In this document: piece by piece, positions 9,827 through 48,903 of the stretch | Position numbering within the stretch: position 1 is the stretch's first letter | How the letters are laid out: every line of letters starts with the position of its first letter | Translations under genes and position numbers: made by a program | Source of the DNA: Blastococcus saxobsidens DD2 | GTDB lineage: Bacteria; Actinomycetota; Actinomycetes; Mycobacteriales; Geodermatophilaceae | Assembly: GCF_000284015.1 (NCBI RefSeq) | Contig: NC_016943.1 | Location: 1,095,541 to 1,159,540, forward strand | Reading direction: 5' to 3' | DNA length: 64,000 bases | Notes under the pieces: model-generated | The model's database searches: none | What the model was told of the DNA's origin: nothing | Seen by the model: the letters and a program-made list of their open reading frames with translations, nothing else

Positions 9827-11095
9827 GTGCCATTCGACTCCACTCCGCGCCCCATCCCGGTGCCGCTCCCGCAGGTCCCGCGCGCGGTGCTGACCGTCTC
9901 CGGCGCGGACCGGCCCGGTGTCACCGCCCAGTTGTTCGCCGCGCTGGCCGACAGCGAGGCGGGCGTGCCCGCGGTCGAGGTCCTCGATGTCGAGCAGGTG
10001 GTCGTGCACGGGCACCTGGTGCTCGGGGTCGTCGTCGGCGCGGCCGCCACCGACGGCGGGCCCGCCGTCGACGGGCCGACCCTCCTCGCCCGCCTGCGCC
10101 GGGTGGCGGACGACGTCTCGGCGGCGGTCGGCGTGGAGGTGACCGTGGAGTCGGCTTCCACCCCGGCGCGGGAGCCTGCGGCCGGGCGGGCGCACCACGT
10201 CATCGTGCTCGGCCGACCGGTCCCACCGGAGGCCGTGGCGGGCGCCGCCCGTGCCATCGCGGGCATCGGCGGCAACATCGACGCCATCCGGCGGCTCTCG
10301 GACCTCCCGGTGACCAGCTTCGAGCTGACCGTGTCGGGGACGGACGCGACGGCGCTGCGCACGGCGCTCGCGGAGGTCGCCACCGCCACCGGGGCGGACA
10401 TCGCCGTCGAGCGGGCGGGCCTGGCCCGGCGCAGCAAGCGGCTGATCGTCCTGGACGTGGACTCCACCCTGGTGCGCGGCGAGGTCATCGACGAACTGGC
10501 CGCCCGCGCCGGCCGGGCGGCGGAGGTCGCCCGGATCACGGCCGCCGCCATGAACGGCGAACTGGACTTCGCCGAGTCGCTCCGCGCCCGGGTCGCCGTC
10601 CTCGCCGGTCTGCCCGAGGAGGTGCTCGACGAGGTGCGCGAGCACCTGGTCCTCACCCCGGGAGCGCGCACCCTGATCCGGACGCTGCAGCGCCTCGGTT
10701 TCCGCTGCGGGATCGTCAGCGGCGGCTTCACCCAGATCACCGACCCGCTGGCCGAGAGCCTCGGCCTGGACTTCGCGGCGGCCAACACCCTGGAGGTGGT
10801 CGACGGCCGGCTGACCGGGGGCCTCGTCGGTGAAATCGTGGACCGCCCGGGGAAGGCGCGCGCGCTGGCCCGGTTCGCCGAGCAGTACGGCATCCCGCTG
10901 GAGCAGACGGTCGCGGTCGGGGACGGCGCCAACGACCTCGACATGCTCAACGCGGCGGGGCTGGGCATCGCCTTCAACGCCAAGCCGTTCGTGCGGGAGC
11001 AGGCGCACACGGCGCTCAACCAGCCCTACCTCGACGCCGTCCTGCAGGTCCTCGGTTTCACCCGTGACGAGGTGCTCGACGCCGGGCCTTGTTGA
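9827..11095 (+). CDS. serB: Phosphoserine phosphatase with ACT-like N-terminus
   Basis: A 422-residue enzyme for the last step of serine synthesis (phosphoserine to serine). Two ACT-like regulatory regions occupy about residues 10-200 (starting RAVLTVSGADRPGVTAQ), as in mycobacterial SerB2; the HAD phosphatase domain has DVDSTLVRGEV (nucleophile and acid/base Asp), SGGFTQI and GDGANDLDML. A GTG at 9827 follows a CACGAT -10-like hexamer by six bases, suggesting a leaderless start; an in-frame GTG at 9809 is the alternative. The stop codon lies inside the left arm of a perfect palindrome. Confidence 0.93.
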   Translation: MPFDSTPRPIPVPLPQVPRAVLTVSGADRPGVTAQLFAALADSEAGVPAVEVLDVEQVVVHGHLVLGVVVGAAATDGGPAVDGPTLLARLRRVADDVSAAVGVEVTVESASTPAREPAAGRAHHVIVLGRPVPPEAVAGAARAIAGIGGNIDAIRRLSDLPVTSFELTVSGTDATALRTALAEVATATGADIAVERAGLARRSKRLIVLDVDSTLVRGEVIDELAARAGRAAEVARITAAAMNGELDFAESLRARVAVLAGLPEEVLDEVREHLVLTPGARTLIRTLQRLGFRCGIVSGGFTQITDPLAESLGLDFAAANTLEVVDGRLTGGLVGEIVDRPGKARALARFAEQYGIPLEQTVAVGDGANDLDMLNAAGLGIAFNAKPFVREQAHTALNQPYLDAVLQVLGFTRDEVLDAGPC

Positions 11096-11169
11096 TCAGG
11101 TGACCTGATCAACAAGGGTCCTGGCTCAGCACCGGTCGTGAGCCAGGACCCCACCAGGTGAGCCAGGAC
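11087..11169. repeat. Composite palindromic repeat at gene 3' end, copy 1 (intact)
   Basis: Module one is a perfect palindrome centred on GATCAGGTGACCTGATC with 15-bp arms (11087-11101 and 11103-11117), overlapping the serB stop codon. Module two is a hairpin with arms GGGTCCTGGCTCA and TGAGCCAGGACCC (11116-11128 and 11139-11151). A tail CACCAGGTGAGCCAGGAC ends at 11169. A near-identical copy lies at 46091-46168, and a copy split by an insertion sequence lies at 47242-47290 plus 48874-48903. It sits between convergent serB and pncA, so termination is a likely by-product. Confidence 0.9.
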
Positions 11170-26429: not shown

Positions 26430-26459
26430 CTCCGGCCCCGAGCCGTCGAAGTCCGCCGT

Positions 26460-26519
26460 CCTCACCTGCGGGTCGCCGTCCTCGCGCTCCAGCACGAGGA
26501 CGGCGACCCGCAGGTGAGG
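26460..26519. terminator. Long perfect hairpin between convergent genes
   Basis: Two perfect 25-bp arms (26460-26484 and 26495-26519, starting CTCACCTGCGGGTCG) enclose a 10-nt loop. Position between the EAL gene and the phosphatase stop fits a bidirectional terminator. The length and perfection exceed ordinary terminators. Confidence 0.75.
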
Positions 26520-26528
26520 TCTGCGAGA

Positions 26529-46090: not shown

Positions 46091-46168
46091 TTGATCAGGT
46101 GACCTGATCGTTTTGGGTCCTGGCTCACGACCGGTGGTGAGCCAGGACCACACCAGGTGAGCCAGGAC
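46091..46168. repeat. Composite palindromic repeat at gene 3' end, copy 2 (intact)
   Basis: GATCAGGTGACCTGATC (46093-46109), then the hairpin GGTCCTGGCTCAC/GTGAGCCAGGACC (46116-46128 and 46137-46149), then the tail CACCAGGTGAGCCAGGAC ending at 46168. Very similar to 11087-11169. Lies between pruA and the convergent AbiEi/DUF559 gene, whose stop is 7 bp from the tail. Confidence 0.9.
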
Positions 46169-47177: not shown

Positions 47178-47241
47178 CGCAGGAGTCTCACCAGTCCGCG
47201 CGCATGAGTGGTCCAGAGCGGCAGATCTGTGGATAGCCGCC

Positions 47242-47290
47242 GTCCTGGCTCACCTCGTGGGGTCCTGGCTCACCGTCGACGCTGAGCCAG
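47242..47290 (-). repeat. Composite palindromic repeat, copy 3, left half (split by IS110)
   Basis: Reverse orientation relative to copies 1 and 2: GTCCTGGCTCACCTCGTGGG, GTCCTGGCTCACC and GCTGAGCCAG follow the consensus to the CAG at 47288-47290, where similarity stops. Confidence 0.85.
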
Positions 47291-47512
47291 CATCCTTGGC
47301 CTTTCCGGCCGCGCGTTCCGCGCTGAAAATGTGCGTCGGGTCGCCCGCCGACGCACGTTGTCCCTGATCGTGGGAGGTCGTGAGCCAGCAGGGTGCCGAG
47401 GGCTGCGCCGTGGGCGCTTCCTTGTCGCTTCGAGCACGCGGATCAGATTGCTCGTCCTGCCCAGCAGTCCTCGCGGGCGGCCCCCCGAGGGGTCGGTGAG
47501 AGCGAGGAGGTC
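47291..47512 (+). ncRNA. Candidate bridge RNA region of the IS110 element
   Basis: IS110-group elements encode a bridge RNA in the left non-coding end. This 222-nt end holds a hairpin TGCGTCGG/CCGACGCA (about 47332-47355) and, at 47376-47388, GGTCGTGAGCCAG, identical to the 13 nt left of the core in repeat copy 1 and on the minus strand of copy 2. That is the expected position type for a left target guide. CGGATCAG near 47439 resembles the right end CGGGTCAG and might be a donor guide. RNA ends are not determined. Confidence 0.5.
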
Positions 47513-48784
47513 ATGGTGCTTCAGGAAGATCAACAGGTCGAGGAGATCGTCGCCCGGGTGGCGGCGCTGGATATCGGCAAGGCCGAGCTGGTGTGCTGTG
47601 TGCGGGTGCCGCATCCGACCCGGCCGGGCAAGCGGATGCAGGAGGTGGTCACCTATCGCACGATGACCCGCTCACTGCTGGTGATGGCCGACCGGCTGGC
47701 CGGGCTGGGCGTCAGCGAGGTGGTCATGGAGGCCACCAGCGACTACTGGAAGCCGCCGTACTACCTGCTCGAGGCCCGCGGATTGAACCCGAAGCTGGTC
47801 AACGCCCGCGACGTCAAGCACCTGCCCGGCCGGCCCAAGACCGACAAGCTGGACGCGGTGTGGCTGGCCAAGCTGGCCGAGCGCGGCATGCTGCGGCCCA
47901 GCTTCGTGCCTCCGCCGAAGATCCGCCGGCTGCGCGATGTCACCCGCTACCGCGCCGATCTGGTCGAGGTGCGTACCGCGGAGAAGCAGCGGGTGGAGAA
48001 GCTGCTCGAAGACGCACAGATCAAGCTGTCGGTGGTGGCCAGCGACATCTTCGGCGCCTCCGGGCGGGACATGCTGGCCGCGCTGATCGCCGGCACCCGC
48101 GACCCCAAGGTGCTCGCCGCGCTGGCCCGGGGCCGGATGCGCGCCAAGCTCACCGACCTGGAAGAGGCGTTCACCGGCTACTTCACCGATCACCACGCCC
48201 GGCTGCTGACCACGATGCTGGCCCGCATCGACGGCCTCTCAGCCGACATCGCCGAGCTCGAGGTGATGATCGAGGAGATGGTCGCCCCTTTCACCGACGC
48301 GGTGGCGAAGCTCGATGAGATCCCCGGCATCGGCCGCGTCGCCGCCAGCGCAATCCTGGCCGAGATCGGCCTGGACATGAGTCGGTTCCCCACCGACGGG
48401 CACCTGTGCGCCTGGGCCCGCTTCGCCCCCGGCACCAAGGAATCGGCCGGCAAGAAGAAGGGCGCCGGCAGCACCGGCCACGGAAACCGCTACCTGGCCA
48501 AAGTCATCGGCGAGGCCGTCGCCGGCGCGGCGAAGACCGACACCTTCCTCGGCGAGCGATATCGCCGCCTGGCCCGCCGCCGCGGCGGGAAGAAGGCCAT
48601 GGTCGCCGTCGGCCGCTCCATGCTGGTGATCATCTGGCATCTGCTGTCTGATCCCGACGCCCGATTCGTCGACCTCGGCTCGGACTTCCACGCCAAACGA
48701 ACCGACCCCGACCGGCGACGCCGCGCTCACGTTCACCAGCTCGAAGCCCTCGGCTACACCGTCACCCTCACCCCAGCCGCCTAA
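47513..48784 (+). CDS. IS110-family transposase (recombinase)
   Basis: A 423-residue DEDD-type transposase. The RuvC-like domain has Asp20 in LDIGKAE, Glu in MEATSDYWKP, and Asp residues in KTDKLDAVWLAKL. The C-terminal transposase_20 domain has IPGIGRVAASAILAEIG and the conserved GSTGHGNRYL region with the candidate catalytic Ser. The ATG at 47513 follows a strong gaggaggt Shine-Dalgarno. The gene is intact, so the element may be active. Confidence 0.95.
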   Translation: MVLQEDQQVEEIVARVAALDIGKAELVCCVRVPHPTRPGKRMQEVVTYRTMTRSLLVMADRLAGLGVSEVVMEATSDYWKPPYYLLEARGLNPKLVNARDVKHLPGRPKTDKLDAVWLAKLAERGMLRPSFVPPPKIRRLRDVTRYRADLVEVRTAEKQRVEKLLEDAQIKLSVVASDIFGASGRDMLAALIAGTRDPKVLAALARGRMRAKLTDLEEAFTGYFTDHHARLLTTMLARIDGLSADIAELEVMIEEMVAPFTDAVAKLDEIPGIGRVAASAILAEIGLDMSRFPTDGHLCAWARFAPGTKESAGKKKGAGSTGHGNRYLAKVIGEAVAGAAKTDTFLGERYRRLARRRGGKKAMVAVGRSMLVIIWHLLSDPDARFVDLGSDFHAKRTDPDRRRRAHVHQLEALGYTVTLTPAA

Positions 48785-48873
48785 CCCCACAAGCGTTCGC
48801 CCGTCCCCGACTCGGCGCAGCCCCAAGGCCGAGCCGTCGGTTCCGTTCGCCCGTACCCCAGTCATTTTCGGGT

Positions 48874-48903
48874 CAGGACCCAGAACGATCAGGTGACCTG
48901 ATC
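48874..48903 (-). repeat. Composite palindromic repeat, copy 3, right half
   Basis: CAGGACCCAGAAC followed by GATCAGGTGACCTGATC (48887-48903). The palindrome encodes the last four residues (DQVT) and stop of the DUF488 gene on the minus strand. Confidence 0.85.

Follow-up and report, generated by a model that had tools for sequence, protein, structure and literature searches.

An IS110-family insertion sequence interrupts a palindromic repeat

The window, a 64,000-nucleotide stretch of the Blastococcus saxobsidens DD2 genome (positions 1095541-1159540 of a single contig of 4,875,340 bp), contains an insertion sequence (IS) that consists of a single transposase gene and two non-coding ends, the left one, upstream of the gene, being the longer of the two (222 versus 92 bp). 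The initial annotation had placed this element in the IS110 family, and the transposase agrees with that assignment. It matches the Pfam families PF01548 (E = 1e-25) and PF02371 (E = 2e-15), and it combines the DEDD domain with the C-terminal Transposase_20 domain by which the family is recognised. Moreover, it scores 256.6 bits against the NCBIfam model NF033542 ('IS110 family RNA-guided transposase'; cut-off 140), and its sequence resembles that of the IS621 transposase (8wt6; E = 1e-7) and is similar to the ISCro4 transposase.

Table 1 Features of the insertion locus and of the palindromic repeats in the window.
Feature	Position	Strand	Remarks and basis
IS110-family insertion sequence, strict element	47291..48876	+	1586 bp including the core CAG at the right end; five copies and empty site in two relatives
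Left non-coding end with predicted bridge RNA	47291..47512	+	222 bp; structured core ~47338-47483; consensus fold of 18 homologous left ends
Predicted right target guide UGUCCC	47359..47364	+	four contiguous pairs with target GGAC; position from clade-wide covariation; weak in the window element
Predicted left target guide GUGAGCCAG (GTGAGCCAG)	47380..47388	+	identical to the repeat arm on the left of the insertion; covariation
Predicted left donor guide CGGAUCAG (CGGATCAG)	47439..47446	+	right end reads CGGGTCAG, one mismatch
Transposase gene	47513..48784	+	423 aa, DEDD and Transposase_20 domains; Pfam, NCBIfam, similarity to the IS621 transposase (8wt6)
Right non-coding end	48785..48876	+	92 bp; terminus CATTTTCGGGTCAG, same in 5/5 copies; ATTTTC..AG terminus kept in relatives
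Interrupted repeat, left part	47241..47290	-	two minus-strand TGAGCCAGGAC units plus the arm as far as the insertion point
Interrupted repeat, right part	48877..48903	-	ends with palindrome GATCAGGTGACCTGATC
Intact composite repeat	11087..11169	+	
Intact composite repeat	46091..46168	+	

The left flank of the element runs as ...GTCCTGGCTCACCGTCGACGCTGAGCCAG up to position 47290 (also given as GCTGAGCCAG), and the right flank restarts at 48877 with GACCCAGAACGATCAGGTGACCTGATC, i.e. GACCC. The single CAG core that had been proposed to be common to both flanks is present at each junction (47288-47290 and 48874-48876), which implies one CAG in the empty site. The element inserts precisely and lacks terminal inverted repeats, and CAG is all that the two junctions have in common, with no long target duplication. 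By eye, a CATTTTC near the right terminus is complementary over 7 bp to a GAAAATG about 36 bp inside the left end.

A whole-element search of the host genome recovered five copies of 99-100% identity. All five start with CATCCTTGGCC, end with CATTTTCGGGTCAG and split their target at the identical position, between a left-hand TGAGCCAG and a right-hand GAC (TGAGCCAG|GAC), while their outer flanks differ. Four copies interrupt an arm of the hairpin stem; the fifth (copy 5, L005) interrupts the third TGAGCCAGGAC unit of the composite repeat. The ends that the initial annotation took to be precisely fixed are thus the same in every copy, as is the target. Its span of 47242-48903, however, takes in the repeat halves on either side and is wider than the strict element. 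In L004 (G000:C1:702820-704437), the right terminus occurs in tandem, with TCATTTTCGGGTCAG present twice, and similar duplications are found in the relatives L177 and L187, as if the exchange sometimes took an AG further inside the right end.

The target is a REP-like intergenic repeat with an empty site in relatives

Comparison of the repeats bore out the view that the flanks of the element are the two halves of the composite repeat found intact twice in the window. The repeat is ordered as a palindrome GATCAGGTGACCTGATC, a hairpin GTCCTGGCTCAC-N8-GTGAGCCAGGAC, a few bases and a second GTGAGCCAGGAC; the interrupted repeat is inverted relative to the two intact ones. Allowing one mismatch, GTGAGCCAGGAC occurs nine times in the window against 0.86 expected, and none of 100 shuffles contained nine or more. 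Genome-wide pattern searches gave 67 exact intact TGAGCCAGGAC sites versus 3 for the reversed control, and 32 strand hits of the hairpin pattern versus none for the control. The two intact window repeats and the restored site fold as hairpins with z-scores of -5.1 to -6.2 against shuffles. Gene prediction by codon usage, with the window as training set, placed 20 of 21 sampled repeats entirely in intergenic DNA, and the remaining one reaches 12 bp into the end of a gene; the neighbouring genes are convergent in 11 cases, tandem in nine and divergent in one. With many copies, an extragenic location and palindromic symmetry, the repeat has the hallmarks of REP-like elements. Elsewhere in the window, positions 26454-26525 form a near-perfect inverted repeat with 35-nt arms, 91% complementary and 2 nt apart.

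The exact hairpin pattern is found in 12 of 24 genomes of the genus as well as in two other genera of the family. Within the genus its distribution is patchy, with many copies in ten genomes, a single site in two and none in twelve. No close copy of the IS was found in the other genomes searched, where the best match, from another genus of the family, reached 74% DNA identity. As the repeat is spread through the genus and the IS is not, the repeat is independent of the IS. We also joined both flanks of the element into a 707-nt query, which aligned uninterrupted to two congeners, G017 (82%) and G016 (80%). In these two relatives, the ones aligned across both flanks, the repeat is intact at the same position and reads TGAGCCAGGACCC, as expected for the empty site anticipated by the initial annotation. 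In two further genomes (L123 and L129) the repeat adjoins the same DUF488-side gene; the alignments of other genomes begin beyond the hairpin.

The left end encodes a predicted bridge RNA whose guides covary with target and donor

We compared homologues from genomes and plasmids, down to approximately 44% transposase identity; searches around G146 and G071 contributed few of these elements. The left ends of these relatives contain a conserved GAGGCCGT (GAGCCCGT in distant members), followed by a variable stretch of 5-7 nt that ends in AG. Over 35 insertions, this stretch agrees with the final bases of the left flank at 166 of 175 positions (z = 15.8), compared to 49.2 ± 7.4 when flanks were shuffled among elements, a control that ignores relatedness. 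The score is somewhat flattered by the single-copy relatives, as their left boundaries were placed by eye and with knowledge of the guide; multi-copy elements are unaffected. When RNA columns and left-flank positions of 16 distinct elements were scanned blindly against each other, the four best pairs fell on one diagonal (z of 5.4-6.2). The 14 copies in Kibdelosporangium philippinense illustrate this relation: their guide is GUGCGUUAG (stretch GTGCGTTAG), and all of them follow GCGTTAG or GCATTAG.

A second stretch agrees with the right-end terminus at 128 of 132 positions over 33 insertions (z = 12.5; shuffles ignoring relatedness). By the definitions given for the bridge RNA in PMC11208160, the two covarying stretches are predicted to be the left target guide and the left donor guide. 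A search for a right donor guide through its match to the left end yielded no clear diagonal, only signals attributable to lineage or chance.

The consensus fold of 18 left ends obtained with RNAalifold shows compensatory changes in 16 of 39 pairs. It comprises outer and 4-bp stems, an internal loop that is closed by a 5-bp hairpin and contains the left target guide on its 3' side, and a second long stem, which encloses a conserved hairpin beside the donor guide. The predicted fold, with its compensatory changes, would provide both the target-binding and the donor-binding loop of a bridge RNA. Folding the left end of the window element alone was uninformative (z = -1.6), so that the alignment was needed, and an Rfam scan gave no match above threshold.

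One left end of K. philippinense (L042:2177-2400) has its first 101 nt, up to the left target guide, doubled without a mismatch, and the two copies meet precisely at the GTGCGTTAG of the guide itself. Such an arrangement appears to have arisen when an element inserted into its own guide and copies subsequently recombined.

A putative right target guide precedes the left one

In the relatives, a motif NNNN-CU is found in the 5' part of the target loop, separated by 1-2 nt from the closing hairpin that follows; it complements AG and the first four bases of the right flank. All six positions pair, G-U allowed, in L153 (UGAUCU/AGATCA), L164 (CCGCCU/AGGCGG), L183 (CACUCU/AGAGTG), L190 (ISArsp3; CUCUCU/AGAGGG) and L192 (GCUGCU/AGCGGC). 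With right boundaries set by the conserved ATTTTC..AG terminus, 39 insertions gave 94 of 156 Watson-Crick pairs compared to 63.0 ± 5.2 after shuffling (z = 6.0, better of two spacings). The spacing was picked after inspection, and the z of 4.1 for one fixed spacing is therefore the more conservative value; these shuffles also ignore relatedness. Scanning 172 RNA offsets returned the two right-guide spacings as the two best (z of 4.1 and 2.9; maximum of the control scans 3.3) and no comparable signal 3' of the left target guide. An earlier search with 13 elements had shown no clear signal, which appeared with 21 and then with 39 elements.

Left target, right target and left donor guides match target and donor across the clade. 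The window element has a weak right target guide, which pairs with only four target bases (GGAC) and mismatches the core A. Judging from this covariation, the clade's right target guide would precede the left one, an order that is apparently new. We consider it somewhat more probable than the alternative that this actinobacterial IS110 clade, to approximately 44% transposase identity, uses a permuted bridge RNA, encoded upstream of the transposase gene with the right target guide 5' and the left one 3'. As the left donor guide follows its apical hairpin, the donor loop may be permuted too. In the text of the literature searched, we did not find a permuted target loop described.

The repeat is probably read as linear sequence

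The initial annotation held that the element targets a repeated, hairpin-forming site. The repeated intergenic target stands, whereas the hairpin is probably not what is read, as judged from copy 5 and the sites of relatives. Recognition of a hairpin or cruciform by the transposase, with sequence mattering only because the repeats are alike, would fit the strong fold of the repeat, the four of five copies that lie in its stem and the relatives L043, L045, L064 and L066, which are also found in palindromes. However, the joined site of copy 5, in the third repeat unit and outside the hairpin, has a fold z of +2.3, and a z of -2 or below is reached by just 12 of 57 joined target sites, including four of the five host-genome copies and some palindromic sites of relatives. 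Most of the relatives occupy sites that form no hairpin and correspond to their respective guides, and left flanks track the RNA guide of each element. The location of copy 5 and of most relatives shows that a hairpin is not required; we therefore rejected a hairpin rule for the clade and regard structural recognition as very unlikely. We likewise dismiss almost entirely the idea that the repeat halves are part of the element and move together with it. Repeat sequence does adjoin both ends of the copies, but more than 60 repeat sites lack an IS, the outer flanks differ between copies, and many congeners carry the repeat without the IS, in addition to the two with an uninterrupted repeat at this locus. 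The empty sites refute the repeat halves as parts of the element.

A less improbable alternative, although still one we doubt, is that only the left half (TGAGCCAG) is specified and that insertions are confined to repeat sites by selection against those in genes. The Kibdelosporangium copies, which have a common left half and varied right flanks, the short right guide of the window element and the intergenic location of the repeats all speak for it. Against it stands the right-flank covariation across the clade. Moreover, TGAGCCAG occurs 271 times in the genome, ten of them as part of IS copies, and GAC follows in about 72 of about 266 candidate sites, yet in five of five insertions, which has a probability of approximately 0.0014 if sites were drawn at random; the 194 other TGAGCCAG sites without a following GAC are unused. 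The restriction to GAC-continued sites can be explained by right-guide pairing, by selection against hitting genes or by both, which five insertions cannot separate. The protection of coding genes invoked by the initial annotation would agree with 20 of 21 repeats being intergenic. Taken together, we favour, with a probability of about 0.9, an IS110-family, bridge-RNA-guided IS whose guide spells an arm of the intergenic repeat, the repeat being read as linear sequence and its hairpin being incidental.

Other palindromes are also interrupted by members of the clade. L064, L065, L066, L069 and L095, from Blastococcus/Geodermatophilus and another genus of the family, carry the left guide TTCTGAAG or a similar one and lie in a different palindrome, (TGTCTC)TGAAG-GCGG or CCGC-CTTCA(GAGACA). 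Three of the 14 K. philippinense copies (L043, L045 and L053) interrupt yet another palindromic repeat, TCGTGAGTGGTTA..GCGTTAG / AACACG..TAACCACTCACGA. A suspected location of L054 and L055 in the anticodon arm of a tRNA was not supported by ARAGORN, whether run on the loci or on the joined flanks.

Comparison with known systems and proposed mechanism

IS110 elements in extragenic palindromes, namely IS621, ISPa11, ISPpu9 and ISPpu10, are already known (PMC1525189), as is RNA-guided targeting by IS110/IS1111 elements (PMC11208160, PMC11187229). Our element apparently belongs to this known kind of RNA-guided IS110 in palindromic repeats, from which the permuted target loop would set it apart. 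IS621, which is of the IS110 group, uses a bridge RNA and inserts in E. coli REP elements (PMC11208160, PMC1525189). Both elements have related transposases, a long left end with a guide RNA (predicted here), a short core and an extragenic palindromic target, and the left target, right target and left donor guides are recognisable in both; the repeat and the guides differ, and the core is CT in IS621 and AG/CAG here. The published IS621 RNA reportedly carries the left target guide before the right one. The right target guide is thus 3' of the left in IS621, in contrast to its putative 5' position in our clade, and the IS621/ISEc21 layout does not apply here, the right-guide signal being 5' of the left guide.

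The bottom-strand match is the first of the two in ISEc21 (IS110 type), whereas the IS1111 seekRNAs, exemplified by ISEc11, ISKpn4 and the REP-targeting ISPa11, begin with the top-strand complement (PMC11187229). The apparent order in our clade is therefore opposite to that of ISEc21 and like that of the RNA-guided IS1111 elements, where the top-strand complement (right target guide) also lies 5' of the bottom-strand match (left target guide). The RNA region of IS1111 elements is downstream of the transposase gene, whereas here it is upstream, as in the IS110 type including IS621. IS1111 elements also have subterminal inverted repeats of 7-17 bp; in our element, a 7-bp CATTTTC/GAAAATG complementarity was noted by eye. 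ISPpu9, ISPpu10 and ISPa11, located in Pseudomonas REPs (Tobes and Pareja 2006, PMC1525189), share the precise and repeated insertion into extragenic palindromes, albeit in other bacteria and another repeat, and their guide basis was not known then. ISArsp3 from plasmid 2 of Arthrobacter sp. FB24 belongs to the same clade (46% transposase identity) and has the same guide layout with different guides and a different target (left flank AAGTGAG).

By analogy with the family, we propose that the left non-coding end encodes an RNA with target-binding and donor-binding loops, which would be transcribed and bound by the transposase. The element would excise as a circle in which the right end (CGGGTCAG) is joined to the left end (CATCC). 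The transposase-RNA complex would then recombine the circle junction with a site in the chromosome that has the sequence of the left target guide, (G)TGAGCCAG, while the right half of the target (GGAC) would be read by the shorter second guide. Strand exchange at the common AG/CAG core would leave one CAG at each junction. The intergenic palindromic repeat exists in dozens of copies, and as the guide spells one of its arms, approximately 70 mostly harmless sites are at the element's disposal, five of which are occupied.

This reading explains why an IS110 element settles in a palindromic repeat, namely because its guide spells the repeat, and makes recognition of a hairpin versus a linear sequence directly testable. 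It also delimits an RNA-guided recombinase system from GC-rich actinobacteria with its ends, core, predicted guides, approximately 70 natural target sites and empty sites. If the permuted order holds, guide order and the location of the RNA, both of which serve to distinguish IS110 from IS1111, would be separable traits, and the reversed order would add a further layout for programmable recombinases.
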